A DNA stretch of 64,000 nt from Acidobacteriaceae bacterium (GTDB lineage: Bacteria; Acidobacteriota; Terriglobia; Terriglobales; Acidobacteriaceae): NCBI GenBank assembly GCA_003131585.1, contig PKVW01000056.1, positions 72,717-136,716 on the forward strand, given 5' to 3'. How positions within the stretch are numbered: position 1 is the first letter of the stretch; every line of letters starts with the position of its first letter. The notes below the pieces were generated by a model, which saw only the letters and a list, made by a program, of their open reading frames with translations, was not told the origin of the DNA and did no database searches. Positions 6,812-59,465 of this stretch are shown one piece after another. A program made the position numbers and the translations under genes.

Positions 6812-6833
6812 GAAGTGAGCTTGAAGTGAGCTT
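6812..6833 (+). repeat. 11-bp tandem duplication abutting a start codon
   Basis: GAAGTGAGCTT occurs twice in a row and ends directly at the ATG at 6834. No clear Shine-Dalgarno sequence is present apart from the weak GAAGTGAG inside the repeat. Confidence 0.6.
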
Positions 6834-7202
6834 ATGGATAAGAAGAAGTTAGAAGCGTTCAGGAAGCGGCTGGAGACGCGGCAGCAGGATCTGCGCCGCA
6901 CGGTCTCCCGCACCCAGGCCGATGGCCGCTCCGCCGACGAAGACACGGCGCAGGACATCGCCGACCGCGCCGCCAGCTCCTACACCAAAGAATTTCTCTT
7001 CAGCCAGAGCAACAACGAGCGGCAGCTACTGCAGATGGTGGAGAAGGCGCTGGCGCGCATCCGCGAAGGCAACTTCGGCGAGTGCATCCATTGCGGCAAG
7101 GAAATCAACGCCAAGCGCCTGGAGGCCGTGCCCTGGACGCGCCACTGCATCGAGTGCCAGGAGAAACTCGAGCAGGGATTGCTGGAGGAAGCTCCCCGGT
7201 AA
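6834..7202 (+). CDS. dksA: DksA/TraR-family zinc-finger transcription factor
   Basis: This 122-residue protein enters the RNA polymerase secondary channel and, with (p)ppGpp, tunes promoter activity (family knowledge). The coiled-coil arms flank residues 41-46, DIADRA, which keeps the DxxDxA tip motif needed for DksA function in E. coli. The C4 zinc finger is C84-x2-C87...C105-x2-C108. It is shorter than the 151-residue E. coli protein, mainly at the N-terminus, as is common outside Proteobacteria. It is monocistronic, with its own promoter upstream. Confidence 0.9.
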   Translation: MDKKKLEAFRKRLETRQQDLRRTVSRTQADGRSADEDTAQDIADRAASSYTKEFLFSQSNNERQLLQMVEKALARIREGNFGECIHCGKEINAKRLEAVPWTRHCIECQEKLEQGLLEEAPR

Positions 7203-7214
7203 GCGGAGGTAGCA

Positions 7215-7269
7215 GCGCCTGAAGGCGCGATTGGCAATGTGGCACGTACGGTATGCCTGAAGGCATACC
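7215..7269. repeat. Two perfect hairpins sharing a TGAA loop
   Basis: GCGCC-TGAA-GGCGC (7215-7228) and GGTATGCC-TGAA-GGCATACC (7250-7269) are perfect stems with the same loop. Neither is followed by a T-run. They lie between the DksA-like gene and the next promoter and may be short REP-type units or mRNA-end structures. Confidence 0.55.
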
Positions 7270-7310
7270 CTAATACGAATCTCACGGGTACCGGGCTGAA
7301 GCACGCGGCT

Positions 7311-7340
7311 TTGACGGTGCTGTTTTCCGGCTGATAAACT
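7311..7340 (+). promoter_or_regulatory. Sigma-70-type promoter for the TPR protein
   Basis: TTGACG (7311-7316) and TAAACT (7335-7340) are separated by 18 nt, about 68 nt upstream of the GTG start at 7409. Confidence 0.5.
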
Positions 7341-7408
7341 AATAGTTTGACCCACCAAGGCAGAGAGTCAACGACATCGACTCAAGAGACTGAGACTGGA
7401 AGGTAGTC

Positions 7409-8134
7409 GTGCGCGCAGAAACCCGCCATCAACTTAAACAGGATGCATTCAGCCGGGTCACCCTCGGAGCCGCCGAGAAGACCGCGCACTGGAGCGTGGA
7501 ACACAGGAACACTCTCGCGGTCGCCGGCGCCGCCGTTGTGGTGATCGTCGCCGTCGTGCTGGGCGGGTGGTATTACCTGAGCGCGCAGGATGAGCAGGCC
7601 AGCTTCGATTTATCGCAGGCGGTCAGAACTCTGGATACGCCGCTTCGCCCGGCGGGAACGCCTGCGCAGCCCGACGTTCCCAGCTTCACCTCCGCGAAGG
7701 AGCGCTCCGAAGCCGCCAAGAAACAATTCCAGGCGATCACGGACAAGTATCCGCACACCCGCACCGCGGATATGGCGCGCTACTTTTTGGGGGTGACGTC
7801 AGCGACCGCGGGCGACAACGCCGCCGCCGAAAACAACTTCAAGGCGGTGGCTTCGACGGGCAACAAAGAGCTGGCTTCGGTGGCGAAGCTCGCGCTGGCC
7901 GCTCTCTACGGCAACTCGAACCGCACCAAGGATGCCGTGGCGCTTTACCAGGAGCTGATCAATAAGCCCACGGCTTCGGTGAGCAAAGTGACGGCGCAGT
8001 TACAACTGGCGGAACTTTACCAGACCAGCAATCAGCCGCTCGACGCCAAGCGTATCTACGAGCAGATCAAGAAAGACAATCCCAGCACGGAAGCGGGACA
8101 GCTGGCGACACAGAAACTGGCGGAACTGAAGTAG
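7409..8134 (+). CDS. YfgM-like membrane-anchored TPR protein
   Basis: This 241-residue protein has a cytoplasmic N-terminus (about 1-35), one transmembrane helix (about 36-56, TLAVAGAAVVVIVAVVLGG) and tetratricopeptide-type helices from about 95 to the end (for example FQAITDKYP, VALYQELI, RIYEQIKKDNPSTEAGQLA). This layout is that of YfgM/UPF0070 proteins, which assist the SecYEG translocon or outer-envelope chaperones. The start is GTG, preceded by a GGAAGG-type ribosome-binding site. The TPR family call is firm; equivalence to YfgM is moderate. Confidence 0.8.
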   Translation: MRAETRHQLKQDAFSRVTLGAAEKTAHWSVEHRNTLAVAGAAVVVIVAVVLGGWYYLSAQDEQASFDLSQAVRTLDTPLRPAGTPAQPDVPSFTSAKERSEAAKKQFQAITDKYPHTRTADMARYFLGVTSATAGDNAAAENNFKAVASTGNKELASVAKLALAALYGNSNRTKDAVALYQELINKPTASVSKVTAQLQLAELYQTSNQPLDAKRIYEQIKKDNPSTEAGQLATQKLAELK

Positions 8135-8226
8135 GATCACGCTCGCGCGTCGCCGCTTTCATTTTCCTTCCTAAACCCTTGTTTATTCTTAGTTCCGATT
8201 GCCATCCGTGGTCCCGGCGGAGATGA

Positions 8227-9879: not shown

Positions 9880-9962
9880 TCCCGCATTCCCACCCGGTTA
9901 CAAATGCGCCCAGTTATTTTACTGGCAGGCGCGCAGCCAGCATTGGCCACGCGCTCGTCCGC

Positions 9963-10007
9963 GACGATCCTCTCCACGACGATCCTCTCCGCGACGACCC
10001 TGTCGAC
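9963..10007. repeat. 15-bp tandem repeat, 3 copies
   Basis: The unit GACGATCCTCTCCAC occurs at 9963-9977, 9978-9992 (one change) and 9993-10007 (diverged), possibly with a fourth degenerate copy upstream. It ends 13 bp before the -35 box of the yceD operon promoter. Confidence 0.85.
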
Positions 10008-10953: not shown

Positions 10954-12057
10954 ATGCCTAGCGTGATCGCGCTGGATGCGATGGGTTCGGACCGGGCCCC
11001 CAAGCCTGAAGTCGAAGGCGCAATCCATGCCGCGCGCAACTACGGCGTGCGCGTGCTGCTGGTCGGTCCGGAAACCACGATCAAAGCGGAACTGGACCGT
11101 CACCCGGCGGCGGCCCGGCTGTCCATTGAGATCGTCCATGCCAGCCAAGTCATCACCATGGAAGATAAGGCGGTGCAGGCGGTGCGCGCCAAGCGCGACT
11201 CCTCCATGCGAGTAGGACTGCGGCTGGTGCGCGAGGGACGGGCGGCGGGCTTCGTCACCGCCGGCAATACCGGCGCCGCGATGGCTTCGGCCAAGATGGT
11301 GCTGGGCGCGTTGCGCGGGGTGGACCGGCCGGCGCTGGCGGCGGTTTTTCCCACGGCTCCGGGCACGGCCGCGATCTTGCTGGATGTCGGCGCGAACGTG
11401 GACTGCAAGCCCCACAATCTCGAACAGTTCGCCGTGATGGGCGAGATTTATTTTCGCTCCATGTTTGGGAACATGTTTGGCAACACGTTCGACAACAAAA
11501 CGTCCGGCCGATCGATGTTCGGCGCCGGGAGACGGCCGCGCGTGGGATTGCTCTCGATTGGCGAAGAGGAAACCAAAGGCAACCAACTGACGCGCGCGTC
11601 GTTCCAGTTATTGAAGCGGCTGCCCTTGAACTTTGTGGGCAACGTCGAGGGCCGCGACCTGTTCAATGGCCATGTCGATGTGATTGTGGCCGATGGATTC
11701 GTGGGCAACGTGGCGCTGAAGATTTCCGAGGGCGTGGCGAACCTGGTGCGCACAGTTCTGAAAGAATCGCTAAAAGCGACGATTACGCGGCAGGTCGGCT
11801 ACATGCTTTCGCGCAGCGCATTTTCCGATTTCAAAAAGCGCATCGACCACACCGAATACGGCGGCGCACCCCTGTTGGGGTTGAAGGGCGTGTGCATTAT
11901 CACGCACGGTTCGTCGAACGCGAACGCGATCAAGAATGCGGTGCGGGTGGCTGCGGAGTTCGCCGAGCGGCGCATCAATACGTCGATCGAGCAGGGACTG
12001 GCCCAGCTTCGTCCGGCACGGGTGGAAGTGGAAGTGGAAGTCGCACCGGCTCACTAA
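10954..12057 (+). CDS. plsX: Phosphate acyltransferase PlsX
   Basis: PlsX converts acyl-ACP and phosphate into acyl-phosphate for phospholipid synthesis. The protein is 367 residues, longer than the usual 330-350. Family marks are [19 protein letters not shown] at the N-terminus, [22 protein letters not shown] and [14 protein letters not shown]. The excess length comes from an in-frame insertion of about 18 residues near 172-190, where [12 protein letters not shown] are 12-bp tandem copies and RSMFG recurs on both sides. The C-terminus ends in a VEVEVEV repeat. It sits 14 bp upstream of fabD. Confidence 0.96.
11461..11496 (+). repeat. 12-bp tandem repeat inside plsX, 3 copies
   Basis: ATGTTTGGGAAC, ATGTTTGGCAAC and ACGTTCGACAAC are consecutive in-frame units encoding MFGN, MFGN and TFDN in a region where other PlsX proteins have no insertion. 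Confidence 0.8.
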
Positions 12058-18320: not shown

Positions 18321-19910
18321 ATGAACGGCGCAGAGAGTTTAGTTCGCGCGCTTGTCGCCGGAGGCGTGGACACTTGCTTCGCGAACCCCGGCACTTCGGA
18401 AATAAACATCGTTGCGGCACTGGACCGGGTGACGGGAATGCGCTGCGTGCTCGGTCTGTTTGAAGGCGTGGTCACGGGCGCTGCGGACGGGTATGCGCGC
18501 ATGGCCGGGAAGCCGGCATGCACTCTTCTTCACCTGGGCCCCGGCCTCGCCAACGGTTTGGCGAATCTGCACAATGCCAGCCGGGCGCAGGCGCCAATCG
18601 TCAACGTGGTCGGCCAGCATGCCACGTATCATCTGTGCCACGACACGCCCCTCACTGCCAATATCGAAGCCATCGCGCGTCCCTATTCCAGATGGTTGCG
18701 GACCTCTCAAGCTGCGGCCGAAGTCGGCCGCGATGCGGCGGAAGCGATCGCCGCGGCCCGCACAGCGCCGGGCCGGATCGCTACGTTGATCGTTCCTGCC
18801 GATGTTGCATGGTCCAAGGTGATCGCGTCCAAGGTGATCGGGTCCAGCGTTATTCGGAGCGAAGGCGGAGCCGTCGCCGGGATCCCCGCTCCACCGCAGC
18901 CGCCCATGCCCGCTGTCGAAAACGTAGAGCGCGCCGCGGCCATGCTCCGGTCGGGTTTGCGAACCGGTCTGCTGATCGGCGGGAGTGCGCTCCATGGCGA
19001 TGGACTCGTAGCTGCCGGGCGCATCGCTGCGGCAACTGGCGCCAAGCTGCTGGCTCCCTACCCCATCGCGCGCCTGGAACGCGGCGCTGGCATCGCGCCA
19101 GTCGAACGAGTTCAATACGTCCTTGAGCAGGCGGTCGAACAATTAAAGGAGTTTCGTCAGCTTATCCTGGTGGGCGCTCCAGTTCCCGTGGCATATTTCG
19201 CTTCTCCAGGTAAGAACGCCGTACTCACATCGGCGGAGTGTGCGATCCACACCTTGGCGGGTCCAGAAGAAGATTGTGTTGGCGCGCTCGAAGCGCTGGC
19301 CGCGACATTATCGCTGCGCGGAACTCAGCCACCGCCAGACACGACCGAACGGCCGCCGGTGCCGAGCGGGAAGATCACATTGCCCGGTCTTGCCGCCGCT
19401 GTGGGAGCGCTCCTGCCTGAAAATGCCATTGTGGTGGACGAATCCATGACCTCAGGTCGAGGCATGATGGCAGCCACAAGAGGCGCTCCGCCTCACGACT
19501 GGCTGGGGAACACCGGGGGCTCGATTGGGATTGCCTTGCCTCTGGCTGTGGGTGCGGCAGTGGCATGCCCGGAGCGCCGTGTGCTGTGCCTGACGGCCGA
19601 TGGCAGCGGCATGTACACACTGCAAGCGCTGTGGACCATGGCACGCGAAGGGCTCAAAGTCACGACGGTGGTGTTCGCCAATCGCGACTATGCCGTCCTG
19701 AAGCGCGAGTTTTCTTATCTGGGGATTGGCAATCCGGGGCGCTGCGCTTTGGATATGTTCGAGATCGGACGTCCGGATCTCGACTGGGCACGCTTGGCGA
19801 AAGGCATGGGGGTGCCGGGCGCGCGTGTGACCTCGTTGGAAGGATTTGCGAAGGCGTTGCGGGAAGGGTTTGAAAACGAAGGTCCGAGCCTGATCGAAGT
19901 GCCTCTATAA
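18321..19910 (+). CDS. ThDP-dependent enzyme, acetolactate synthase/benzoylformate decarboxylase-like
   Basis: This 529-residue enzyme has the usual three domains. The catalytic glutamate lies in GLFEGVVTGAADGYAR (about residue 51) and the Mg-ThDP site is TADGSGMYTLQALW followed by VVFANRDY. Sequence style is closer to the single-subunit benzoylformate decarboxylase/sulfopyruvate group than to IlvB. The ATG at 18321 is chosen for homology; an ATG at 18285 overlaps the upstream gene. Residues 165-179 are three 15-bp tandem units (SKVIA, SKVIG, SSVIR) in the domain linker. It is 7 bp from the PCP-TE stop and likely cotranscribed. It could make or decarboxylate a 2-oxo acid exchanged with the aminotransferase. 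Confidence 0.88.
   Translation: MNGAESLVRALVAGGVDTCFANPGTSEINIVAALDRVTGMRCVLGLFEGVVTGAADGYARMAGKPACTLLHLGPGLANGLANLHNASRAQAPIVNVVGQHATYHLCHDTPLTANIEAIARPYSRWLRTSQAAAEVGRDAAEAIAAARTAPGRIATLIVPADVAWSKVIASKVIGSSVIRSEGGAVAGIPAPPQPPMPAVENVERAAAMLRSGLRTGLLIGGSALHGDGLVAAGRIAAATGAKLLAPYPIARLERGAGIAPVERVQYVLEQAVEQLKEFRQLILVGAPVPVAYFASPGKNAVLTSAECAIHTLAGPEEDCVGALEALAATLSLRGTQPPPDTTERPPVPSGKITLPGLAAAVGALLPENAIVVDESMTSGRGMMAATRGAPPHDWLGNTGGSIGIALPLAVGAAVACPERRVLCLTADGSGMYTLQALWTMAREGLKVTTVVFANRDYAVLKREFSYLGIGNPGRCALDMFEIGRPDLDWARLAKGMGVPGARVTSLEGFAKALREGFENEGPSLIEVPL
18813..18857 (+). repeat. 15-bp tandem repeat in frame, 3 copies
   Basis: TCCAAGGTGATCGCG, TCCAAGGTGATCGGG and TCCAGCGTTATTCGG encode the pentapeptides SKVIA, SKVIG and SSVIR inside the ThDP enzyme. 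Confidence 0.85.
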
Positions 19911-19953
19911 AATGGACGCCTTTACGTTCTTCAGCGCGCCTGAAGGCTGATGC

Positions 19954-20012
19954 GGCCGTCTTTATCCGGCCGTCTTTTATCCGGCCATCTTGTGTGCGGC
20001 CATCTTTTATCC
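19954..20012. repeat. 14/15-bp tandem repeat, 4 copies, between convergent genes
   Basis: Units GGCCGTCTTTATCC, GGCCGTCTTTTATCC, GGCCATCTTGTGTGC and GGCCATCTTTTATCC run from 19954 to 20012. The last unit contains the stop codon (TAA, 20007-20009 on the minus strand) of the acyl-CoA ligase gene. Confidence 0.85.
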
Positions 20013-21572
20013 GGCGATTTTGGCGAGCTCGGCCTTGACAACTTTTCCAGTCGGAGTGACCGGCATGGCGGGAACGAGGAGAATCTGCGACGGCCGTTTG
20101 TACGGAGCAAGATGCTGGGCGGCATATTCCGCCAGATCGGTAACCGTCACTAACGAGTCCGGCAGTGGCTGAACGAAAGCGACAACTTCCTCGTCTCCTT
20201 CCACCGATCGGCCAATCACCGCCGACTGCACGACCGCGGGATGACCGTTCAACACCGCCTCGACCTCGGCCGGGTAGACGTTGAAGCCACGACGGACGAT
20301 CAAATCCTTCGTTCGTCCGACGATGAAAAGATTTCCATCTTCCAACCGGGCAAGGTCGCGTGTATTGAACCATCCTTCCGCATCGATGGCGGCGGCAGTT
20401 TCCTCGGGGGCGCGATAGTAACCCTTCATGACGTTAGGTCCGCGCACCCATAGTTCACCGGCTTCTCGCTCGGCCACCGGTTTGCGATCCGGCCTAACCA
20501 ACTTGATTTCAACTCCTGGGAACGGCGGTCCGATCGAGGTATCGCTGCGAGGCGCTTCGACCCGGGTTTGAGCGATGGTGGGAGAGCATTCCGTCACGCC
20601 ATAGCCGTTGTGAAGCGGCATGCCGAAAAGTCTCTCCACGGCTGACTTGGTAGAAGCGTGGAGTGGCGCGCCGGAAGAAGAAATGATGCGAAGCGCGGGA
20701 AACTTCAGCGACTCGATCCCTCTAAACTTTGCATATTGGAGGAATTGGGTGAATGTGGCCGGGGCGCCCAGCATCACTGTCAACCGCTCTCTCTCCAGCG
20801 TCAGGCGTGCGGTGATGGGATCAAAACGCGGCGATAAATAAAGCGACGCGCCGCTTAGCAGCGAACCCAGAAGGACCACGGAGAGGCCCACGGCATGAGA
20901 CATCGGTAGAACGCCATAGAGGCGGTCGGCGGCCGTCAGGGCTCGTATCTTCGCCGATCCGGCCGCCAGAAATAACAGGCTCCGGTGGCTCAACATCACA
21001 CCCTTGGGAAGACCCGTAGTACCGGACGTGTAAATTAAGGCGGCGACGCGGTCCGCAATGTTCGCGTCTTCATCTATAGGCTCGGGTTCGACATTCTCGT
21101 TCAGAGGGCCGAGGCCGATCGATCCCAAACCATTCACTTCTTCGAGCACCGCGCCGTGCCGCTGGGCGTGATCGGTAGCGTGCGGCGATATGCTTGTGGT
21201 GTAGAGCACACGACGGGCGCCGCAGTGATCCCGGATCTCGTCGATCTCGCGCCCGGAGAGACGTGCGTTCACCAGCACTGGCCATGCGTCGAGGCCGGCC
21301 GAAGCCAGGAGAATTGCTACAAACTCCCGGCAGTTCTCGCCGACGATCATGACGCGATCGCCCGGACGTACGCCCGACTTGCGAAGCCACATCTGCGTCC
21401 CAGAGATTGCGGAATCCAATTGCCGGTACGTCCAGGTCCCGGAGGTCTCGACCAGGGCCGGCCGGTCCGGCGAACTCTCCGACCATGGCTTCACCACGTC
21501 GCTGATGCGGGCGGAAAGCATCCTCAACATCTCAGACGCCTGGTTTTCACTGGTTGGTGCTGGAGCAATCAT
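20007..21572 (-). CDS. AMP-dependent acyl-CoA synthetase/ligase
   Basis: A 521-residue ANL-superfamily enzyme that activates a carboxylic acid as the acyl-AMP and then the thioester. The P-loop-like A3 motif is YTSGTTGLPKGVML. Later marks are GYGVTECSPT, ELWVRGPNVMKGYY, the TRDLARLEDGNLFIVGRTKDLI hinge and the catalytic lysine near the C-terminus in TPTGKVVKAEL. It is the last gene of the minus-strand EPS super-locus, 33 bp after metA. Stand-alone acyl-CoA ligases recur in exosortase-associated EPS loci. It could load the free ACP (25607) or the PCP-TE. Confidence 0.9.
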   Translation of the reverse strand: MIAPAPTSENQASEMLRMLSARISDVVKPWSESSPDRPALVETSGTWTYRQLDSAISGTQMWLRKSGVRPGDRVMIVGENCREFVAILLASAGLDAWPVLVNARLSGREIDEIRDHCGARRVLYTTSISPHATDHAQRHGAVLEEVNGLGSIGLGPLNENVEPEPIDEDANIADRVAALIYTSGTTGLPKGVMLSHRSLLFLAAGSAKIRALTAADRLYGVLPMSHAVGLSVVLLGSLLSGASLYLSPRFDPITARLTLERERLTVMLGAPATFTQFLQYAKFRGIESLKFPALRIISSSGAPLHASTKSAVERLFGMPLHNGYGVTECSPTIAQTRVEAPRSDTSIGPPFPGVEIKLVRPDRKPVAEREAGELWVRGPNVMKGYYRAPEETAAAIDAEGWFNTRDLARLEDGNLFIVGRTKDLIVRRGFNVYPAEVEAVLNGHPAVVQSAVIGRSVEGDEEVVAFVQPLPDSLVTVTDLAEYAAQHLAPYKRPSQILLVPAMPVTPTGKVVKAELAKIAG

Positions 21573-29837: not shown

Positions 29838-30304
29838 AGGACCGATCCTCCGTAATGCGGACCTTCCGCCTTTGCCAGGTGCGGCCATTGCGTGAGCCAG
29901 AGGTCCGCGTAGCGGCCGGCGCGTGATCCGGACATCGAGAGGTCCTCGATGTTGGCCATGCTGTCGATCCAAATCGTTTTCGCTCCGAACCAACGTCCGA
30001 GTAGTATGGCAAAGTATCCCGGCGCCGCGCCCGTGGAGATGACCACCGACGGCCTTTCCTTAACGATGATCCAGGCCAGCCTGAGCGCCAGCCGAATCAA
30101 ACCCAGCTTGTTCCAGCGGGTGGCGTCGTTCACGGAATAAAACCTGTTTTCTGGCACCTGCGAGCGATACGCTTCGATGACTGTGACGTAGACGACCTCG
30201 GAATCGGCAAATGCCGGAACGAGCCGCCGCAATTGCACCCAATGGCCGCCGCTGGAGGCAACCGCCAATACCTTGTTGCGATTGTGAGCTTCTTTCACCG
30301 GCAT
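29834..30304 (-). CDS. Alg14/PssD-like membrane subunit of a glycosyltransferase
   Basis: A 156-residue protein with VLAVASSGGHWVQLRRL at the N-terminus, the Alg14 glycine-rich motif, and PSVVISTGAAPGYFAILLG, the central conserved motif. It recruits the Alg13-like catalytic subunit to the membrane and binds the lipid acceptor. Its TGA overlaps the next gene's GTG by 4 bp, giving equimolar translation. The upstream deacetylase gene overlaps it by 10 bp. Confidence 0.9.
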   Translation of the reverse strand: MPVKEAHNRNKVLAVASSGGHWVQLRRLVPAFADSEVVYVTVIEAYRSQVPENRFYSVNDATRWNKLGLIRLALRLAWIIVKERPSVVISTGAAPGYFAILLGRWFGAKTIWIDSMANIEDLSMSGSRAGRYADLWLTQWPHLAKAEGPHYGGSVL

Positions 30305-31023
30305 AGTTCCCTTAGCGGCTTGATCTGGAAAGATTCCTTCTGGGCGACGTCCAAAAGTACCGCGGTCAATTCGAGCACGAAATCATTTCGTGGCCGCGTC
30401 CGGTCCAGGTCGTGCATCAAGACGATGCCACCGCCCTCGCTACGCAGCCGGTCCGCCACCTGGCTCGCGCTGGGCAGCAGGTCGTGGGTGTCTCCCGAAT
30501 CGATGGTCCACCACCAGACCGGAGCGCCCCGGCGGCGGATCGACCAATAAGTGGGCAGGGTCATTTTGCCGTGTGGCGGACGGAACATTCCATCCGGCTG
30601 AATCCACGGGGAAAGCCGTTTATATCCAGCATCGATGTCGGCGACGGCTTCCCACGGCAGCACCTTCCAGGCGTTAAGGTGTTGGTCGGAATGGCAGCCG
30701 ACGTCATGGCCTTCTTCAATGACGCGGTCGACAATCTGCGGATGCTGCTGCGCGTGCCGGCCCAGCATAAAAAAGGTGGCGCGGGCGCCGCGGCGCTGTA
30801 GCAGATCGAGGAGTTGCGGAGTGAGCGCACTGCTTGGACCATCGTCATACGTCAGGACGAGGATTCGGTTCCTGACCAGTTCTCTTCGAACGCGATTCAT
30901 CCGATGGCGCCGCCACAACCAAGGCGAGAAATAAGCGGCGGAGCCCGCCAGTCCGATCGTGGCCGCCAAGGCTGTAGTCATTGTTTTGCGCATTCTCGTT
31001 TTGCGCATTTTCGTTTTGCGCAT
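30295..31023 (-). CDS. Polysaccharide deacetylase (NodB/CE4 family), membrane-anchored
   Basis: A 242-residue protein with an N-terminal helix (about 16-35) and a CE4 domain. Motifs are TYDDGPS (catalytic Asp and metal Asp), HSDQH (metal His pair) and RPPHG. It removes N-acetyl groups from amino sugars. The N-terminus consists of three 15-bp units that each carry an in-frame ATG (MRKTK, MRKTR, MRKTM), so the true start among M1, M6, M11 and M15 is ambiguous; all lie before the membrane helix. It overlaps the Alg14-like gene by 10 bp. Confidence 0.88.
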   Translation of the reverse strand: MRKTKMRKTRMRKTMTTALAATIGLAGSAAYFSPWLWRRHRMNRVRRELVRNRILVLTYDDGPSSALTPQLLDLLQRRGARATFFMLGRHAQQHPQIVDRVIEEGHDVGCHSDQHLNAWKVLPWEAVADIDAGYKRLSPWIQPDGMFRPPHGKMTLPTYWSIRRRGAPVWWWTIDSGDTHDLLPSASQVADRLRSEGGGIVLMHDLDRTRPRNDFVLELTAVLLDVAQKESFQIKPLRELCR

Positions 31024-31035
31024 TTTCGTCTAACG
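30991..31035. repeat. 15-bp tandem repeat carrying start codons, 3 copies
   Basis: CATTCTCGTTTTGCG, CATTTTCGTTTTGCG and CATTTTCGTCTAACG each contain CAT, read as ATG on the minus strand. This multiplies the start codon of the deacetylase gene. A shorter fourth piece lies at 30979-30990. Confidence 0.85.
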
Positions 31036-31084
31036 CTGATTCGCCGGATGCATGCCGTCTGAGGTGTCGAGAAATCCAAGGAGG

Positions 31085-40999: not shown

Positions 41000-42864
41000 G
41001 CTGGCGTCACCAGGAGCGCGTCTTCGGTAATGATGTCAATGACGCCGTCGTCCGGAACCTGTCTTTCCTTAGGAAACCTCAGGGATAGAACTCCGTCCCT
41101 GTTTTGTGTCTCTTCCTTTTGTGTCTCTTCGTTTTGTGTCTCTTCCATGGCCAGGTCGGCAAACACCTGCCCCGACGGAGCATTCCGCGGAGTCTTGCGG
41201 TAATCAGCGTAAAAATCCTTGCCGGTTTCGGCGATGTACCTGCGCATCATCCAGGTCAGAAACGCGTGTTCGACGCGCTTGGATTGAATGCGGCAACTGA
41301 ACATCAGATCGGTCATTCTCGGTTCGCGGCGATCGACGATGGAAAAACCGATCACTCCATAGCTGCCAAACCGGTCCTCGCAAGTGAGGACAAACGTATC
41401 CAGATGCGGGTTGGACAGTAGATTCCTCAACACCTCGCGATCGTACCGGTTCCCGGAAAAGTTCATCTGGTTCGTTCGTTGGGTCAACTCGTGGACGCGC
41501 TCCAGATTCTCTTCGCTCATCGGACGAACCGTCAGTTGAATCTGGCAGTGCCGGAGGAATGCCATGTAGTCGTTGCTGAAGCTCTGCGCCACCGTCTGCC
41601 GGCTCGCCTCTACTTGATACAGCTTGCGCCGTTGCTGGCTTTCGGAAGTGATGGGAACTTGGCACTCGCCCCGTTCCGGCAGAGTACGGTACTGTTCCGC
41701 ATTCAGAACTTGCACCTCCGGACAGACCGCCTTCACTTCCTCCAGCTCGAACTTGGAGTCGTCGATGAACAGAATGCTGTCCATGCCAATGTTTAGCTGT
41801 TGGGCAATGGCTTTGATTCCCTGGCTTTTCGGTTGCCAGGAGATCTGTGGGCACAGGAAGTACTGATCAAGCTGGAACTTCTTAATCACTCGCAGCGCAT
41901 CTTCCGAATTGTTTTTGCTGGCGATCGAGTGCAGGATTCCGCGCCGATCCAGTGCCTGAATGACGGCGGCGATGTCCGGCTTCAGTTGCAGGCGTTCTGG
42001 ACCGTCCTCGACCAATACGCCGTCCCACAGCGTGTTGTCGAGGTCCCATACGACGCACTTGATTTTCTTGCCGGTCGTGTCAGGCTTCTTGCCGGGCTCG
42101 TCAGCCTTCTTGCTTTCCGCCAGCTCGGTTACAAACTCCATCAGGCCAAAGTAAAGGGTTGTCTCATGGGCCTCGTCGTTGGGGATAAGATCGATGCCAA
42201 ACGGTTGCCGAAGATCGATCAACGCGGTAATTTCCTCCAACGGAACCCGGATGCGGTGAAATCCCGGGGTCAGATCGATCAGTTTTTGGAACGGCATCCT
42301 GGAGCGCTCATCAATCGCGCGCATGGTCAGCGACAGGCGAACATCGTGCGATTCTGGGTTGTAGCATTCCAGAAGAAAGCACGCCGGGAATGCGTGGCCG
42401 TTGGATGCCGAGCTGGCCATTCTCTTCTTGAAACCATAGCGCTTGGCCGTGGCCGTGATCTTTACGAGCGACGGCAAAGGGAATCGCTGCAGCGCGCTTC
42501 CGATCCGGTAGTCTCTTCTTTCAAGCCGTTCCGCTTTCTCCGCCGTATGCAATCGGATATTGCCGGGGGTCCACAGTTTCCCCCAGCGCTTAAAGCGAAT
42601 CTTCAAAAGGTAGGGATTCACGGCCGACGGGGATTCGATTCTCACCATTCCGTCCGCGAACCTCCGGCATCTTCCGTCCTGCCGGGGACTGTACAGATCG
42701 CAGGATGTGTAGCAGGTGGGCCACACACACTCCGTGCAGTGCTCGCTCCATGGGAGCACCGTTCGAGCCCGTATCCGTCCTATGAGATGTTCGAACGAAC
42801 GCATTGCCTCAACAGGAAGTTGAGCCGGACTTTCGGTATTGTAATTTGCTTCTGTCTCGTACAT
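40996..42864 (-). CDS. FkbH-like HAD-IIIC phosphatase with extra N-terminal domain
   Basis: A 622-residue protein. Residues about 1-240 are an extra domain with a cysteine cluster (CTECVWPTCYTSCDLYSP) and a beta-sandwich-like stretch. Residues about 265-400 are a HAD-IIIC phosphatase (VVWDLDNTLWDGVL, ASKNNSED, ILFIDDSKFELEEVK). The C-terminal part (about 430-580) is GNAT-like. FkbH proteins move a glyceryl unit from 1,3-bisphosphoglycerate to an acyl carrier protein. The C-terminus carries three 15-bp units coding EETQN, EETQK and EETQN. It is coupled to the deacetylase by ATGA overlap. Confidence 0.85.
   Translation of the reverse strand: MYETEANYNTESPAQLPVEAMRSFEHLIGRIRARTVLPWSEHCTECVWPTCYTSCDLYSPRQDGRCRRFADGMVRIESPSAVNPYLLKIRFKRWGKLWTPGNIRLHTAEKAERLERRDYRIGSALQRFPLPSLVKITATAKRYGFKKRMASSASNGHAFPACFLLECYNPESHDVRLSLTMRAIDERSRMPFQKLIDLTPGFHRIRVPLEEITALIDLRQPFGIDLIPNDEAHETTLYFGLMEFVTELAESKKADEPGKKPDTTGKKIKCVVWDLDNTLWDGVLVEDGPERLQLKPDIAAVIQALDRRGILHSIASKNNSEDALRVIKKFQLDQYFLCPQISWQPKSQGIKAIAQQLNIGMDSILFIDDSKFELEEVKAVCPEVQVLNAEQYRTLPERGECQVPITSESQQRRKLYQVEASRQTVAQSFSNDYMAFLRHCQIQLTVRPMSEENLERVHELTQRTNQMNFSGNRYDREVLRNLLSNPHLDTFVLTCEDRFGSYGVIGFSIVDRREPRMTDLMFSCRIQSKRVEHAFLTWMMRRYIAETGKDFYADYRKTPRNAPSGQVFADLAMEETQNEETQKEETQNRDGVLSLRFPKERQVPDDGVIDIITEDALLVTPA
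41102..41146. repeat. 15-bp tandem repeat in frame, 3 copies
   Basis: TTTTGTGTCTCTTCC, TTTTGTGTCTCTTCG and TTTTGTGTCTCTTCC. On the minus strand they encode a pentapeptide series (EETQN, EETQK, EETQN) in the FkbH-like protein. Confidence 0.9.
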
Positions 42865-52002: not shown

Positions 52003-53616
52003 CTAGCCGCGCAAGTAACTGAGGGCCGACCCCAGCAAAATCGTTACCGATACGAGAACTGCCGTTGCCCAGCCGATCCACAGCCGCCGGCGCTCACTTT
52101 GCTCGTCTGCCGCAGCCGCCAGGGCCGGGATTTCCGAGATCACCGCAACCGGCAGGAGCTTCTGCAGTTCTTTCTCGTCATAAATCCGGTCATCCATCAT
52201 TTCGAAGGCTCCAGCCACGATGATGCCCAGCGCCAATCCGATGCCCAGCCCAATCACACAGAACTTCAGCCGATTGGGGAAGTCGGGTTTCACGGGCAGG
52301 CTGGGAGGATCGATAATGCGAAAGCGCTCACCCTGCTGGAGCAGTTCCATGCTGGTGGCCATGGCCGACTCATTCTTCTTCTTCAAGAGCTCGTCGTAAT
52401 TCGCTTTGGATTGATCGTAGCCCCGGGTCAGGTCGGAGAGCTGTTGCTCCCGCACCGGCTCCTGATTCAGCCGTGCCTGGTAGTCAGTGACCTTTGTCTT
52501 CAGTTCCACGATCCCGTGCTCGCGATTGGCAATCTCGACCCGGTTCGCCTGGAGTTGCCCCTGCAACTGCACCATCGGGGCCGACGCGTCCCGTGACTCA
52601 GCTGGATCTGAGGCTGGCGCCGTTGCGTTAGAGTCGCCCTGGCCGCCAGAAGCTTTCGTTTTCTTATCGGCGACGAGCTGGCTTCTCATCTTTTCGGTCT
52701 TGGCGATTTGCTCCTTAACCTTGCGCACGTCAGGATGGCGGTCGGTGTAATGCGAGCTCAAATCCGCTAGTTGCGCCCGCAGTTTATCCAGCTCCTCGTC
52801 GAGCGCATTCAAACCCACAGACGCCCCGCTCTCGCTTTTCGGCGAGCCTTGCAGCGAGCGGTATTGATTGACCAGCGTCTCCAGGTAGACGCGCTGCTGT
52901 TTGGCTGTATTGAGCGCGTCTTCTTCGGTTTGCAACTGGGACTGCAAGCCGGCCAGAATCTGCAGATTACTCCCCACTTGGGTGGGCAGCTCCCCGATGT
53001 GTTGCCCCTTGAACTCGCGAATCTTCCCTTCCTGGTCAGACAAGGTCTTGCGTGCGGTTTCCAACTGGCCCTGGAGAAACTTCGTGGTGTCTTCCGACTG
53101 CTGCTGGCGCACCTCCAGATTCTCGCTGATGAAGAGGTTGGTGAGTTCGCTGGTCACCTGTTGGGCAACATGAGGATCGTGGGAGGAGTAGTAAACGTTA
53201 AAGGCGCTGACCCGGTTTTCGGGATCGCGCACCAATTCGATTTCGATCTCTTTGCGCATCCGCTCCACCTTCTCGTCGGATGTTAGATGGCCGTTCGAAT
53301 CCGCGTACAGGTTTAGCTGATCGATAATGTGCAGCAAGCGGGTACGGCTGAGAATCTGCTGGGTAATGCTCCGCAACCGGTCTTGCAGATCGTCGTTCAC
53401 GTTGGGCGTGACATAGTCCTTCGGCATGGTGGGCTGTTCCACCAGAATCAGTGTGCCCGAGCGATAGCGTGAGGGGAGAACCCAGCTGGCCCCCCATACT
53501 ACAAGCCACCCGAGAAGCAGCGGGATCAGGAACTGCATGTGACGGCGGCGGGCCATCCCGAGGTAATGCGGGAGATCGAACCGGTCCGAGTTTTTTTCTT
53601 CGAGATCTTCAGCCAT
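52003..53616 (-). CDS. Polysaccharide chain-length determinant (Wzz/GumC-like, no kinase)
   Basis: A 537-residue inner-membrane protein with one helix near the N-terminus (about 28-48, MQFLIPLLLGWLVVWGASW), a long periplasmic coiled-coil (about 130-470, with LQTEEDALNTAKQQRVYLETL), the IDPPSLPVKPDFPNRLKF proline-rich segment and a second helix (about 470-490, FCVIGLGIGLALGIIVAGAF), plus an extra C-terminal helix. It controls polymer length together with the separate BY-kinase. The upstream gap of 72 bp holds a 14-bp tandem repeat. Confidence 0.92.
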   Translation of the reverse strand: MAEDLEEKNSDRFDLPHYLGMARRRHMQFLIPLLLGWLVVWGASWVLPSRYRSGTLILVEQPTMPKDYVTPNVNDDLQDRLRSITQQILSRTRLLHIIDQLNLYADSNGHLTSDEKVERMRKEIEIELVRDPENRVSAFNVYYSSHDPHVAQQVTSELTNLFISENLEVRQQQSEDTTKFLQGQLETARKTLSDQEGKIREFKGQHIGELPTQVGSNLQILAGLQSQLQTEEDALNTAKQQRVYLETLVNQYRSLQGSPKSESGASVGLNALDEELDKLRAQLADLSSHYTDRHPDVRKVKEQIAKTEKMRSQLVADKKTKASGGQGDSNATAPASDPAESRDASAPMVQLQGQLQANRVEIANREHGIVELKTKVTDYQARLNQEPVREQQLSDLTRGYDQSKANYDELLKKKNESAMATSMELLQQGERFRIIDPPSLPVKPDFPNRLKFCVIGLGIGLALGIIVAGAFEMMDDRIYDEKELQKLLPVAVISEIPALAAAADEQSERRRLWIGWATAVLVSVTILLGSALSYLRG

Positions 53617-53627
53617 AATTATTTTCC

Positions 53628-53697
53628 CAGGACTATCTTCCCCGGCCTATCTTCCCCGGCCTATCTTCCCCGGCCTATCTTCCCCGGCCTATCTTCC
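53628..53697. repeat. 14-bp tandem repeat, 5 copies, supplying a stop codon
   Basis: Units of CCGGCCTATCTTCC follow one diverged copy (CAGGACTATCTTCC), running 53628-53697. The last unit contains the TAG stop (53689-53691, minus strand) of the barrel-protein gene, and the rest fills the gap to the chain-length gene. Confidence 0.9.
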
Positions 53698-55116
53698 CAA
53701 CGGTCTGGCAAATTGATACGAGATGGCAACCCACTCCCGGTTCGTGTCCGGGTTTGCGGAAATGAAGCTGTAGGTCTGGTGCAGCCGCGTGTACCCAAGC
53801 TGTAGATTCAGATGCTCACCGACTTGTCGTTGCAGAGAAGCGCTTCCGGAAACGGAATGGCCGCCCAAAGCGGAAACGGCGAGGACGCCATTGTTCGCGT
53901 AAGCTCCAGTCAGCGAGGCGCTAAAGTTGCGCGTGATCTGTTGCCGCACCGACGCATTCGCGCTGTCGAGCTTCACCGCTCCAATCAGCCCGCCGCCGCC
54001 GCTAACACTCCGCGAATAGCTGACCGCCATGGCGGTGTGCCGCGCCTGCCAGTTCAAGCTGGCGCCGGCTGCCGGGGACCAGGATTGCGAAGCCGGCACC
54101 GGGGACAGTGCCGCGCTGGGGTATTGCGGGCCCGCGCTGTAGTATTGCGGACCGCCAAACAACGAAAAAGAGAACGCGGGCGCCCGATAGAACGTATAAA
54201 AAAGGAAAACGCCATGCGTCTGCGTCTCGTTCGTCGCTGCGGCCGGGTAAGAGAGCAGTTGCTGGTATTGATACGTCGCACCGATATAGTGCCGCCTGGA
54301 GAGGCGGTAACTGTAGAAGGCCGATGCCCCTCGCGAAGCTGCATCGTAAAGTCCCGGCACTTCGGCTGGGTTCGGGTAGTGCAGATTGGTAAAGGTCCCG
54401 CTCGCCCCGATCATGGCGTTGGCGCTGAATTGATAGGTAATTCCCGCGTTGCCGATATTGCCGAGCCGGTCGGCCAGCGGCGCAATCACGGAATCGTTGG
54501 CGGCCTGCGCGGAGCCGGAAACTGCGCCGGCCAGGCCTTGATCCGGCTGATTGAATACGTCGGACGACTTTTGGAACGAATCGCGCAAGCTGACCGTCAC
54601 ATGCGGACTCAACCGGTATTGGAAGTCCAGCGACAGATTCTGATCCGTCTCGTTGCGGGAGCTGGTGCGCTGATAGAACGTGAATCCCGGAGCGTACGAC
54701 AGAACCCAGTGCAGCCGCGACCGGGTCTGATCCAGCGCCAGCGTGGGCCAGACCGAATAACTCACGTCGCTCACCGGGCTGGCGCTGGTCGCCCCCAACA
54801 CATTGTCGGAGTAGGCGGTGTTGAAGGTAACGCCGCCCCGCAGATAGTTGGCTCGTTCCTCGGAAGTAAAGGAGAGCGGGTAGGTTTCTCCGCTCACCGG
54901 AGGAGGGGTCAGCATCTGGTTTTCGTCATTGTCACTATTCAGGGAGACGGCGCCGATGGGGCCGGTCGCCGCCGGTGGTGGAACGGTGCGTTGCTGCTCC
55001 TGCGCCCAAAGCGGCGCGCTGGCCAGCAGGACCAATCCCAACCAGGCTGTATCGAAGATTCTCATGGTCACGATTCTCATGCTCACGATTCTCATGGTGA
55101 CGATTCTGATGGTCAC
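53689..55116 (-). CDS. Outer-membrane beta-barrel protein of the EPS system
   Basis: A 475-residue exported protein. The signal peptide is at about residues 21-42 (TAWLGLVLLASAPLWAQEQQ). The remainder alternates amphipathic strands with aromatic belts (FNTAYSDNVLG, YAPGFTFYQRTSS, YQYQQLLSYP), the architecture of EPS-locus barrels (BBP2/TIGR03016-like). The N-terminus encodes MTIRIVTMRIVSMRIVTMRIF from the 15-bp repeats at 55057-55116, so start codons are redundant; the first is GTG at 55116, overlapping the Wza-like gene stop. Confidence 0.88.
   Translation of the reverse strand: MTIRIVTMRIVSMRIVTMRIFDTAWLGLVLLASAPLWAQEQQRTVPPPAATGPIGAVSLNSDNDENQMLTPPPVSGETYPLSFTSEERANYLRGGVTFNTAYSDNVLGATSASPVSDVSYSVWPTLALDQTRSRLHWVLSYAPGFTFYQRTSSRNETDQNLSLDFQYRLSPHVTVSLRDSFQKSSDVFNQPDQGLAGAVSGSAQAANDSVIAPLADRLGNIGNAGITYQFSANAMIGASGTFTNLHYPNPAEVPGLYDAASRGASAFYSYRLSRRHYIGATYQYQQLLSYPAAATNETQTHGVFLFYTFYRAPAFSFSLFGGPQYYSAGPQYPSAALSPVPASQSWSPAAGASLNWQARHTAMAVSYSRSVSGGGGLIGAVKLDSANASVRQQITRNFSASLTGAYANNGVLAVSALGGHSVSGSASLQRQVGEHLNLQLGYTRLHQTYSFISANPDTNREWVAISYQFARPLGR
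55057..55116. repeat. 15-bp tandem repeat carrying start codons, 4 copies
   Basis: GATTCTCATGGTCAC, GATTCTCATGCTCAC, GATTCTCATGGTGAC and GATTCTGATGGTCAC. On the minus strand they code for V-T/S-M/I-R-I units and give several in-frame ATG and GTG codons at the start of the barrel-protein gene. The final unit also overlaps the stop of the Wza-like gene. Confidence 0.9.
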
Positions 55117-55772
55117 GGTACGATGATGGTGTCGCCGGGCTGAAGTTTAACGTTCTGCGACATATTCTTGCCTTGACTGACATCCTTATAGTTAAACGGG
55201 AGGCGGGACTCCCCGGTGGGGCTCTGCCGGAGAACATACAGGGATTTCTGTTTTGCAAAATCACGGAACCCGCCGGCCAGCGCAATCGCGTCGAGCACGG
55301 TGGGAGAATTGGCGATCCCGTACGATCCCGGCCGCACCACTTGTCCCAGAATGTTGAATTTCTGGCTGTTGACCTGCTGGACCATCACCGTAACTTCCGG
55401 CTCCGAGATGTAATTCTTCAGCTTGCTGGCGATGTCTTTTTCCAGCCGCAACGGAGTGAGTCCGGCGGCCTGGACTTCCCCCACCAGCGGGAGCGAGATT
55501 TTTCCGTCCGATCGGACTGGAATCGAGCGCGAGATATCCGGTTCCTTCCAGACATTGATCGCCAGCACGTCGTCGTTGCCGATCACGAAGCTGTCATCGT
55601 GCGGTTTCGCGGCGGAGGCTTCCGCTTGGGAGCCCGGCGAAGCCGTTTTTGCAGATGGGTCGATGCGGCTTGTGCCGGCCCCGGTTTGCGCGCAGAGCGA
55701 ACCGGACAAAAGAGCGCACAGCAAGAGCATGGTCAGTCGTTCAATCCACCAGATGCAGGGGTTTATGGTCAT
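55113..55772 (-). CDS. Polysaccharide export protein (Wza-like, SLBB)
   Basis: The protein is 219 residues from MTINPCIWWIERL, chosen because a signal peptide follows (about 12-29, LTMLLLCALLSGSLCAQ); an open frame extends upstream without support. The poly-export domain starts DSFVIGNDDVLAINVWKEPDI and SLPLVGEVQAAGLTPLRLEKDI, followed by one SLBB repeat (FNILGQVVRPGSYGI). It forms, or feeds, the outer-membrane channel for EPS. The start of the next gene overlaps its stop as GTGA. Confidence 0.92.
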   Translation of the reverse strand: MTINPCIWWIERLTMLLLCALLSGSLCAQTGAGTSRIDPSAKTASPGSQAEASAAKPHDDSFVIGNDDVLAINVWKEPDISRSIPVRSDGKISLPLVGEVQAAGLTPLRLEKDIASKLKNYISEPEVTVMVQQVNSQKFNILGQVVRPGSYGIANSPTVLDAIALAGGFRDFAKQKSLYVLRQSPTGESRLPFNYKDVSQGKNMSQNVKLQPGDTIIVP

Positions 55773-57370: not shown

Positions 57371-57382
57371 TTCCTAAGCACT

Positions 57383-58020: not shown

Positions 58021-58040
58021 CAAGGGGGATACCACATTGG

Positions 58041-58071
58041 GCGGGAAACCGGGGGGGAGCTGATTTCCCGC
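58041..58071 (-). promoter_or_regulatory. Leader hairpin 1
   Basis: GCGGGAAA (58041-58048) and TTTCCCGC (58064-58071) form a perfect 8-bp stem around a G-rich loop in the leader of the EPS transcript. It is a candidate pause or antitermination element for the UpxY-like protein. Confidence 0.55.
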
Positions 58072-58088
58072 TAACTCAATTGCGCTTT

Positions 58089-58118
58089 ACTTAGACAATC
58101 GTTACTTAAACAATCGTT
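58089..58118. repeat. 15-bp tandem duplication in the EPS leader
   Basis: ACTTAGACAATCGTT is followed by ACTTAAACAATCGTT, differing at one base. Confidence 0.8.
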
Positions 58119-58209
58119 CAGTTACTCAATACGATTTCCGTTTCCGGGCCACTGTTGCCTGGCTGAAGTCACATGGAGCAGGTCCATTGCCAAAAGATGA
58201 TCCGCCTAA

Positions 58210-58238
58210 ATAATCACTACTATGCCTATAGTGATTAT
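58210..58238. promoter_or_regulatory. 10-bp inverted repeat overlapping the EPS promoter
   Basis: ATAATCACTA (58210-58219) and TAGTGATTAT (58229-58238) are perfect complements with a 9-nt spacer. The right arm includes most of the -10 hexamer of the promoter below, so a protein bound here would block or control initiation. Confidence 0.65.
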
Positions 58239-58260
58239 AGCATCCAGCATTAACCGTCAA
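58234..58260 (-). promoter_or_regulatory. Promoter of the EPS locus (minus strand)
   Basis: Read on the minus strand: TTGACG (58260-58255), a 15-nt spacer and the consensus TATAAT (58239-58234). The spacer is shorter than the ideal 17. Transcription would begin near 58227 and give a leader of about 290 nt before the antiterminator gene. Confidence 0.55.
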
Positions 58261-58673
58261 GCGGCGGGGTTCACCTCAACAGATCTCTTAGCCGTCACAC
58301 GCACAGATTTACCGCGGAACCATCGGGCGGGGGAGAACCACTGCCGACCTGATAGTCGGCTTGCCCTGATGACAATGAGCTTACACGGGATTGCAGATCG
58401 TTGCAAGGGGTTACAGTACCCAGCTGGAAGTTACTCTTGGTCCTTGCCTATGGCATCTCATGACAATGAGAAGAATGAACCTAAAAGTTCGGTGTTCTTT
58501 GTTGTAGCCCGCCTGTTCTACCTGCGAGTCGAAAGTACCAAGCGTAAACCACCTAAGTTATTGATTATACTAACTTTTAGCACCAAGAGACCTCGATTTT
58601 ACACCAGACGTGTTGGTTGCACACTCGCGAAACACAACGGCACCCCAAAACCAGACCTCCCGCACTGACCAGT

Positions 58674-58689
58674 GTGCAAGATTTTGCAC
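58674..58689. promoter_or_regulatory. 16-bp palindrome
   Basis: GTGCAA-GATT-TTGCAC is a perfect inverted repeat with a 4-nt centre, in the non-coding interval upstream of the EPS promoter. It is a possible operator. Confidence 0.4.
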
Positions 58690-58910
58690 TTTATGTCCAT
58701 GACTTGCTACATTACCATCAAGCCCTAGTGACAGGAGACTGCACAGAGGCTGTGTCTCCGGAGCCATGGAACAGGTAGCCTGCGAGGAGATTCATCACAG
58801 ATGATGATGACGGCGAAGCAGATCGACGAAGTTCAAGCGGAGGCCAGCGCTTGGCCTTTCCGGAAAGGGATCTTACCGGCTCCAAAAGAGGACCCGGCCG
58901 GCACCTGTGC

Positions 58911-58938
58911 TGAGGATAAACCAGTGAGGATAAACCAG
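58911..58938. repeat. 14-bp perfect tandem duplication
   Basis: TGAGGATAAACCAG occurs twice in succession, about 80 bp past the stop of the VPEGG-protein gene. Confidence 0.8.
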
Positions 58939-59018
58939 AAAGACGCAGCGATGAGAAACGGCGTGCCCGATTTCTGCACGCCGGGTGGATTTCGAATTGG
59001 TCCGGGTCTGAACCCAGA

Positions 59019-59465
59019 CTAAGAGAGGATCTTGCTGGTTCCGCGCATGGACGCTTGCCGCCGGGAGCGTAAAACCATGGCTCCGAGGCAACAGAGACTA
59101 GCAAGCGATAGGTACATCAAGGCTGTCCCGCCCTCGGGCACTGGCGTGCAGCACCCCCCGCCGTTGCCGCCACCTCCACCCCATCCATCGTCCCATCCTC
59201 CTCCGCCCCATCCTCCTCCGCCTCCACCTTGGTTGCCGCAACCGTCACCGCCGCCTCCGTGGTCGCGGTCCCTGTGGTCACGATCCACGTGGTCGCCGCT
59301 GGGACTGAGAGCGAAGGCTAAGAAACTGGAGGACGCGTAGTTTAGAACGTGATTTTCCGTCCCCGCCAGCTTACTGTTGACCGTACTTTGGCCAAACGCG
59401 CAAGGCGCGCAGCACAAAAACGCGGCAAAAGCTACCCACGCCGAAAACCTAGCTAGCAATTTCAT
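59019..59465 (-). CDS. Exosortase-substrate candidate with VPEGG C-terminal tail
   Basis: A 148-residue exported protein. The signal helix is about 8-25. The middle is rich in His, Asp and Gly (HVDRDHRDRDHG, then Gly-rich pentads with Trp, coded by the 15-bp repeats at 59192-59221). The C-terminus is a tripartite sorting signal: VPEGG (109-113), a membrane helix (114-131) and a basic tail RSRR. This TM-motif-TM plan, with VPEGG, fits acidobacterial exosortase targets; from memory a family of XrtJ-associated TM-motif-TM proteins exists, unverified. A GAGGAG ribosome-binding site precedes the ATG. Confidence 0.82.
   Translation of the reverse strand: MKLLARFSAWVAFAAFLCCAPCAFGQSTVNSKLAGTENHVLNYASSSFLAFALSPSGDHVDRDHRDRDHGGGGDGCGNQGGGGGGWGGGGWDDGWGGGGGNGGGCCTPVPEGGTALMYLSLASLCCLGAMVLRSRRQASMRGTSKILS
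59192..59221. repeat. 15-bp tandem repeat in frame, 2 copies
   Basis: CCCATCCTCCTCCGC twice in a row; on the minus strand it encodes the pentads GGGGW in the VPEGG-tailed protein. Confidence 0.75.

Follow-up and report, generated by a model that had tools for sequence, protein, structure and literature searches.

Tandem repeats of constant unit size and variable sequence have been described in bacteria, with units of 20-21 and 52 nt (Subirana and Messeguer 2021, PMC8161180); according to the available part of that report they are only partly conserved even between strains, and their function and mechanism are unknown. The present work concerns short tandem arrays with units of 12-17 bp in a 64,000-nucleotide stretch of the draft genome of a soil-dwelling Acidobacteriaceae bacterium (contig PKVW01000056.1; G000:C28:72717-136716; the whole stretch is here termed the window), and in a larger sample of the same genome. 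The genome carries many independently born arrays of this unit length, whatever their sequence, and it is very probable that they are the product of a size-limited duplication process without a sequence family. The likeness to the 20-21- and 52-nt repeats, as far as the accessible text of PMC8161180 goes, lies in the many arrays per genome, the single unit length combined with unrelated sequences, and the patchy occurrence among related species. By contrast, the published repeats contain species-specific short conserved sequences and were required to have at least four copies, whereas the arrays described here fall in a narrow range of 12-17 nt, have no strong motif, mostly comprise 2-4 copies and are common in genes too. 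The proposal in the initial annotation that no described process does this in acidobacteria thus holds only in part, since repeats of constant size and variable sequence are on record with 20-21- and 52-nt units; the literature searched, outside which most subscription papers lie, yielded neither a 14-15-nt class nor tandem repeats of this kind in Acidobacteria or Sulfotelmatobacter, and the word 'Acidobacteri' is absent from PMC6749651 and PMC8161180. The 12-17-bp arrays are provisionally regarded as a new size class of constant-size, variable-sequence repeats.

Three other systems invite comparison, each as described in the accessible portion of the paper concerned. Borg tandem repeats (Schoelmerich et al. 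2023, PMC9879509) are, like the arrays here, of independent origin and unique sequence, occur both between and within genes, have units in multiples of three when in genes and encode disorder-prone residues; they are also fast-evolving. They are, however, perfect (having been searched for without mismatches), A-rich and located on archaeal extrachromosomal elements, whereas the present arrays are chromosomal, imperfect (adjacent copies are 81% identical in the 20 noncoding arrays with at least four copies), 12-17 bp in unit length and without A bias (unit A fraction 0.227, background 0.218). Two Burkholderia species carry satellites whose units, of 12, 14 and 16 nt, overlap in size with those here (Subirana and Messeguer 2019, PMC6749651), but these satellites derive from C+G-rich microsatellites with 6-8-nt units and form sequence families; in the present units the two halves are unlike. 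When Ku joins filled-in 3' overhangs in mammalian cells, small tandem duplications arise (Schimmel et al. 2021, PMC8355091) that, as here, need no repeat or homology, their length reflecting the stagger; microhomology is lower in this Ku-dependent class than in the one made by theta-mediated end joining (TMEJ). The word 'bacteria' is absent from the main text of PMC8355091.

All twelve repeat loci cited in the initial annotation were recovered by Tandem Repeats Finder (TRF), with starts (6812, 9958, 11460, 18812, 19953, 30983, 41102, 53620, 55057, 58087, 58911 and 59192) at most 8 bases from those it gave. Exact self-matches of at least 10 bp in the window number 11 at lag 15, compared with a mean of 0.0 in 20 dinucleotide shuffles; the corresponding values are 3 vs 0.0 at lag 14 and 5 vs 0.0 at lag 30. 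The 11-bp repeat at 6812, which had been grouped with the others, is present but does not belong to a clear excess (2 runs at lag 11 vs 0.1 in the window), and period 11 is represented by only one noncoding array in the genome sample.

The sample comprised 60 stretches plus the window, i.e. 1.196 Mb of a 3.93-Mb genome that is 96% complete in 75 contigs (L001 and L022, both of which overlap the window, were omitted). Arrays were scored by self-similarity at lag p (+1 for a match, -1 for a mismatch) and counted at a score of at least 14, two earlier scans having used 11 and 16 instead. Coding and noncoding labels came from a home-made gene caller based on codon usage, and some window arrays labelled noncoding (9958, 30983, 58911 and 59184) overlap uncalled or longer open reading frames (ORFs). 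In total, 161 arrays of 12-17 bp were found, 88 noncoding and 73 coding. The noncoding periods from 11 to 19 bp number 1, 8, 12, 23, 26, 13, 6, 0 and 2, a unimodal distribution that for 12-17 bp has a mean of 14.48 (SD 1.34, n=88); periods 20, 21 and 52 contribute 1, 4 and 1 arrays, so that a 20-21 or 51-53-nt class is not apparent here. Ten randomised copies together gave three noncoding 12-17-bp arrays (0.3 each), compared with the 88 observed, and the 73 coding arrays compare with 8.6 per codon-shuffled copy; a chance origin is rejected by these shuffled and randomised sequences. The coding periods include 18 arrays at 6 bp, 30 at 12, 1 at 14, 42 at 15, 5 at 18 and 12 at 21. The predicted peak at 14-15 bp, far above randomised sequence, was thus borne out by the tandem-repeat scan of the sample. 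The view of a nearly constant 14- or 15-bp period stands as regards a narrow size class, but not in its strict form, the range being 12-17 bp with a mode of 15 outside genes, and 12 or 15 (some 18) inside them.

The reading frame accounts for the in-gene periods of 12 or 15 (some 18) bp and cannot account for the noncoding peak. Among 12-17-bp arrays, 72 of the 73 inside genes have units divisible by three, compared with 34 of the 88 outside (Fisher P 4e-18); since most noncoding arrays (54/88) are not multiples of three, a codon-driven origin is rejected, and the preferred period extends beyond the reach of codon selection, as had been argued from the window. In the in-gene 12- and 15-bp arrays Q, T, S, K and D are over-represented and C, W, Y, L and F under-represented, as expected for tolerated disordered linkers.

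The units themselves are unrelated between loci, as initially noted. The 88 noncoding consensus units yield no strong common motif, the best k-mers being ACCCA, in 10 of the 88 (2.1 expected), and GATC, in 14 (5.1 expected), without correction for multiple testing; a mobile sequence family or common motif is accordingly rejected as the main cause. An origin as heptamer dimers fits several exact 14-bp matches, but neither this nor membership of the short, recurrent heptamer repeats (STRR-like) fits the class, the half-units being unlike: self-similarity of the units is 0.27 at lag 7 and 0.30 at lag 8, compared with 0.23-0.29 at other lags. Hairpin-driven births are likewise rejected, there being no excess of hairpins in the units (stems of 4, 5 and 6 bp occur at shuffle level), as is a ruler set by duplex stability, since unit length does not follow unit G+C (Spearman -0.07, P 0.5, n=88).

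Information on how arrays begin comes from perfect two-copy duplications, of which the sample holds 29 at 12-17 bp (7, 3, 7, 8, 2 and 2 in order of length) and only four at 18-60 bp; five randomised copies lead one to expect 0.8 at 12 bp, and nothing between 13 and 60 bp. In noncoding DNA, 20 such births at 12-17 bp compare with 0.2 expected. At 8, 9, 10 and 11 bp, two-copy duplications number 21, 27, 4 and 5 (18.6, 13.4, 2.0 and 1.4 expected), and longer arrays with units below 12 bp are rare apart from a 7-8-bp class (one at 9 bp, two at 10 and one at 11). The upper limit near 17 bp is therefore sharp, and is so already at birth; by contrast, the excess of 8-11-bp births makes the lower limit soft at birth, and it is sharp only in longer arrays. 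Junction microhomology at the 29 births is 0 bp in 12 cases, 1 bp in nine, 2 bp in two, 3 bp in three and 4 bp in three, the expectations if none is required being 15.9, 8.3, 3.2, 1.1 and 0.4. Most births (21/29, with 0-1 bp) need no homology; a minority may. Nor do births strongly favour any sequence.

Once born, arrays grow and decay locally and stepwise. In the 20 noncoding arrays with at least four copies, identity between copies falls from 0.81 at distance 1 to 0.76, 0.72 and 0.65 at distances 2-4, beyond which it is roughly level at 0.60-0.68 with few pairs; the 31 coding arrays with at least four copies give 0.76, 0.69, 0.65 and 0.61 over distances 1-4. Such decay with copy distance argues for stepwise local growth, rather than for selection for fixed positions. 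The copies abut directly, without spacers or insert, and noncoding copy numbers span 1.9-10.7, with at least four whole copies in 20 of 88 arrays. Arrays are scattered nearly as a Poisson process (51 stretches of 20 kb, mean 2.63, variance 3.40, 6 empty).

Comparison with relatives, for which one genome per species was used, indicates that both the arrays and the level of the process vary between lineages. The relatives at one locus are mostly peat or soil acidobacterial metagenome-assembled genomes (MAGs), some of them Acidobacteriaceae or Candidatus Sulfotelmatobacter. The nearest relative, G031, is 83% identical to the window over 2 kb and 74-80% identical over 41 kb in six collinear blocks. 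Eight of the 11 window arrays of 12-17 bp lie within these blocks, and G031 has an array at none of the eight; its own four arrays within the blocks (15, 13, 12 and 15 bp) are at none of the array positions of the window genome. Density was expressed as noncoding 12-17-bp arrays per Mb of noncoding DNA under a pooled gene model, by which the window genome has 84 such arrays (88 with the model trained on itself), and the samples per relative are small (20-240 kb each). The window genome has a density of 402 (84 in 209 kb) and the relative G012 one of 345 (13 in 38 kb), while twelve other sampled relatives, i.e. ten genomes of the same genus together with G031 and G032, of unspecified kinship, have a pooled density of about 67 (12 in 178 kb; G031, 81, 3 in 37 kb; G032, 0 in 25 kb). 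The window genome is thus about six-fold above the pooled twelve (P 4e-12; P 8e-4 against G031 on its own), but not above G012. In the pooled twelve the peak is barely visible, with 12 arrays at 12-17 bp, 7 at 8-11 bp and 6 at 18-23 bp. In a sister family, G020 has 6 arrays in 9 kb, with an apparent peak at 12-13 bp that rests on these six arrays, G021 has 2 in 8 kb and four other genomes have 0 in 28 kb; Escherichia coli K-12 has none in 12 kb of noncoding DNA (100 kb in all) and mixed loci of other phyla have 2 in 51 kb. Exact lag-15 runs of at least 12 bp number 2 at 37 acidobacterial loci (554 kb), compared with 51 in the first 808 kb of the window genome's sample; all 37 loci flank one conserved gene, a setting that may be repeat-poor. 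In the array counts at a score of at least 14, L042, which lies inside G031, was excluded from the other acidobacterial loci; L085 was ungrouped, and L115-L120 and L203-L204 were uncounted. In at least two species, that of the window and that of G012, the process runs at a strongly elevated rate, and it may be weakly active across the genus.

These observations agree with the initial suggestion that a process favouring a certain length, and not a mobile family, is at work, given the unrelated units, the 14-15-bp peak and the absence of arrays from G031 at all eight collinear sites; they do not single out slippage, repair or a cutting enzyme, which had been named together. The account that we tentatively prefer, with rather less than an even chance of being right in full, begins with a pair of breaks or nicks in which the cuts in the two strands would lie at most about 17 nt apart, and usually 12-17. 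A polymerase, that of LigD (primase-polymerase) or another, would fill in the protruding ends, and Ku/LigD would join them, so that the stretch between the cuts is doubled exactly. The spacing of the cuts would be determined by a protein whose footprint acts as a ruler, and neither by sequence nor by the stability of the duplex. Slippage of the ordinary kind, or unequal exchange, could add later copies within the homology then present, which would favour units of at least about 12 bp; in genes, selection retains only in-frame lengths. The rate of duplication would be raised in the species of the window and in one or more of the other relatives sampled. The broader proposition, that some Terriglobales possess a hitherto unrecognised molecular ruler, a nuclease or repair complex acting on both strands 12-17 nt apart at near-random sites, with repair stamping exact tandem duplications of that length, is rather unlikely as stated.

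The enzymes for end joining are at hand, Ku being detected in 28 of 31 genomes and the primase-polymerase (Prim-Pol) domain of LigD in 15 of 15. Several points weigh against the staggered-cut account, however. Ku and LigD occur just as regularly in relatives of low array density and so do not explain the elevated density, and no staggering nuclease was identified; among the families tested, none separates high- from low-density genomes. Noncoding two-copy births at 8-11 bp exceed expectation (19 vs 6.6), as do perfect two-copy 9-bp duplications in genes (24 vs 10.8 under codon shuffling). Microhomology of 3-4 bp at 6 of the 29 births is above expectation (P about 0.005), so that slippage or microhomology may contribute, and the A+T content of the units is slightly above that of the flanking DNA (difference 0.06, P 2e-5). 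The precedent itself is mammalian: in the accessible text of PMC8355091 the overhangs are made by nickases and are of 43 nt or more, and Pol alpha-primase is the polymerase concerned.

Slippage is the usual account of tandem repeats, and predicts broad length spectra and homology at birth. The main rival is a variant of it with a step of limited length, in which the polymerase, during replication or repair, releases and then primes anew no more than about 17 nt behind, a step that an enzyme footprint or the loop sizes that escape repair would fix, so that the arrays would be ordinary minisatellites under a slippage bias specific to the lineage; this is a substantial but doubtful candidate. It fits growth after birth well, neighbouring copies being most alike and noncoding copy numbers ranging widely, and it would accommodate the minority of births with 3-4 bp of microhomology, as well as the births above chance at 8-11 bp, which leave no sharp lower limit. 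Against it, homology is limited to 0-1 bp in 21 of the 29 births at 12-17 bp, and only four births fall at 18-60 bp, where slippage should act too. Repair enzymes are also detected in the window genome, i.e. two MutS-family ORFs, RecJ, exonuclease VII (ExoVII) and a PolA-sized ORF with a 5' nuclease domain, and the loss of repair genes is accordingly rejected as a cause. Among the genomes searched, MutS-type matches occur in 12 of 12 genomes, ExoVII in 15 of 15 and RecJ in 12 of 15, the window genome included. A stand-alone 5' nuclease (PF02739, about 300 aa) is present in 8 of 12 genomes and was undetected in the window genome, G001, G008 and G011; because high-density G012 has one, its presence does not track array density. 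The gene for the ExoVII large subunit is split at contig ends (G000:C53:157-555 and G000:C75:4-390) with about 57 model positions missing between the parts, probably as a result of an assembly gap, possibly one caused by a repeat.

It may be supposed instead that selection for some function of the arrays, such as phased protein or RNA binding, nucleoid organisation or the provision of useful disordered linkers, keeps the unit near 15 bp. Roles of this type are proposed, in the portion of PMC8161180 available, for the 20-21- and 52-nt repeats, and the composition of the in-gene 12- and 15-bp arrays, with Q, T, S, K and D enriched and C, W and Y scarce, resembles that of the disorder-promoting amino-acid repeats of Borgs in the corresponding part of PMC9879509. 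The explanation is nonetheless improbable, in view of the lack of a strong motif in 88 units, the near-Poisson scatter, the decay of identity with copy distance, the sharing by G031 of none of eight collinear sites and the equal unit size in genes and between them.

Scars of a mobile element making 14-15-bp target-site duplications (e.g. a casposon or a target-primed retroelement), with nothing left behind or inserted, are a still less likely source. The unit size of the arrays does fit the target-site duplications of some integrases. Such scars should, however, have two copies, and in 20 of the 88 noncoding arrays there are at least four complete ones; unlike a CRISPR array or casposon product, the arrays contain neither spacers nor an insert. 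Cas1 (at E 0.001), Argonaute (Piwi) and reverse transcriptase (RT) were not detected in the 96% complete window genome, a result that speaks against an origin from casposons, CRISPR, guide DNA or retroelements in that genome; Cas1 matches were found in 12 of the 15 genomes searched and RT matches in 8 of 15. Among 20 window proteins (10 searched with Pfam, 10 with NCBIfam) no match to transposases or to other families of mobile elements was obtained at E 1e-5, other transposase families not having been searched for genome-wide. Finally, an assembly or sequencing artefact is scarcely credible, for although the genome is a draft in 75 contigs, assembly is known to go wrong at repeats and individual copy numbers could still be wrong, point mutations have accumulated between the copies, a comparable noncoding spectrum is seen in G012 (13 arrays at 12-17 bp), and the keeping of frame by 72 of 73 in-gene arrays, compared with 34 of 88 outside, means that the arrays have passed selection in living cells.

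Within the window, three arrays lie in frame in called genes. These are a 12-bp array of 3.2 copies (11460..11497) in the gene at 10954-12057 (+), for which G031 has no collinear sequence; a 15-bp array of 2.8 copies (18812..18853) in a gene for a thiamine pyrophosphate (TPP) enzyme at 18321-19910 (+), where G031 lacks the array; and a 15-bp array of 3.0 copies (41102..41146), likewise without an array in G031, which encodes EETQ(N/K) repeats near the C terminus of the product of the gene at 40996-42648 (-). A 15-bp array of 4.1 copies (55057..55117) occupies the 5' end of the gene at 53689-55116 (-), where G031 has a single related copy and no array. Others lie at gene boundaries. A 15-bp array of about 4.3 copies (19953..20021) falls between convergent genes and overlaps the 3' end of a gene for an AMP-binding enzyme at 20007-21521 (-); it is situated between two collinear blocks, and G031 has there about 4.2 kb without a 12-17-bp array. 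The 14-bp array of about 6 copies (53613..53698) lies between the genes at 52003-53616 (-) and 53689-55116 (-), reaching both gene ends, and is without an array in G031. A 15-bp array of about 4 copies, the last of them degenerate (30983..31043), is located between the called genes at 30295-30900 (-) and 31085-31936 (-), though a longer ORF (30295-31023) extends into it; G031 again has no array.

The remaining arrays were labelled noncoding. That at 9958..10004 (15 bp, 3.1 copies) is between called genes, long overlapping ORFs making the label uncertain, and G031 has no collinear sequence. A 15-bp array of 2.1 copies (58087..58118) is outside called genes, in a region where G031 is partly aligned and has no array. 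A perfect two-copy duplication of 14 bp (58911..58938), also outside called genes, is overlapped by an uncalled ORF; G031 is mostly gapped here and lacks the array. A 15-bp array of about 7 degenerate copies, two of them perfect (59184..59294), is overlapped by the ORF at 59019-59465 (-), and G031, partly aligned, again lacks it. Further along the window, at 59782-61815 (-), is encoded a 677-aa protein in which four stretches match Ig-like domains of the ASPM-SPD-2-Hydin/Cep192 type.

Repeats of other kinds are present in the same genome. A separate period-7 class accounts for 47 noncoding arrays. These intergenic repeats, of 7 bp and in some cases 8 bp, have recurring, related units of the ACTGGCC, AAGTCAG, AAGCTAG and AATGACTC types, sometimes in inverted pairs (e.g. 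L112:6748-6818, L193:6962-7009, L095:10280-10322 and L013:51-121); 7-bp arrays are present in relatives too. A dimer of a 30-bp element (TAAGTCCTTTG...GGATTTTAG type) recurs between genes, in both orientations, at seven places (L004:1363-1418, L018:19320-19375, L184:11746-11800, L186:12816-12871, L191:15643-15702, L199:1007-1062 and L201:19103-19159) and is, unlike the 12-17-bp arrays, a true sequence family. An intergenic 47-bp array (L016:4903-5116) contains a CCTGATACGAA-like sequence that recurs in or beside two 17-bp arrays (L014:12561-12616 and L021:7148-7206), and is possibly a shared small element.

An array-rich genome and its array-poor nearest sampled relative provide a natural comparison for the enzyme that sets the length of small duplications, and the result would also be relevant to the 20-21- and 52-nt classes, as yet unexplained, elsewhere among bacteria. 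In-frame arrays supply tetra- and pentapeptide repeats to proteins. If the ruler is real, it would amount to a lineage-switchable mutator that continually makes disordered peptide segments and intergenic arrays.

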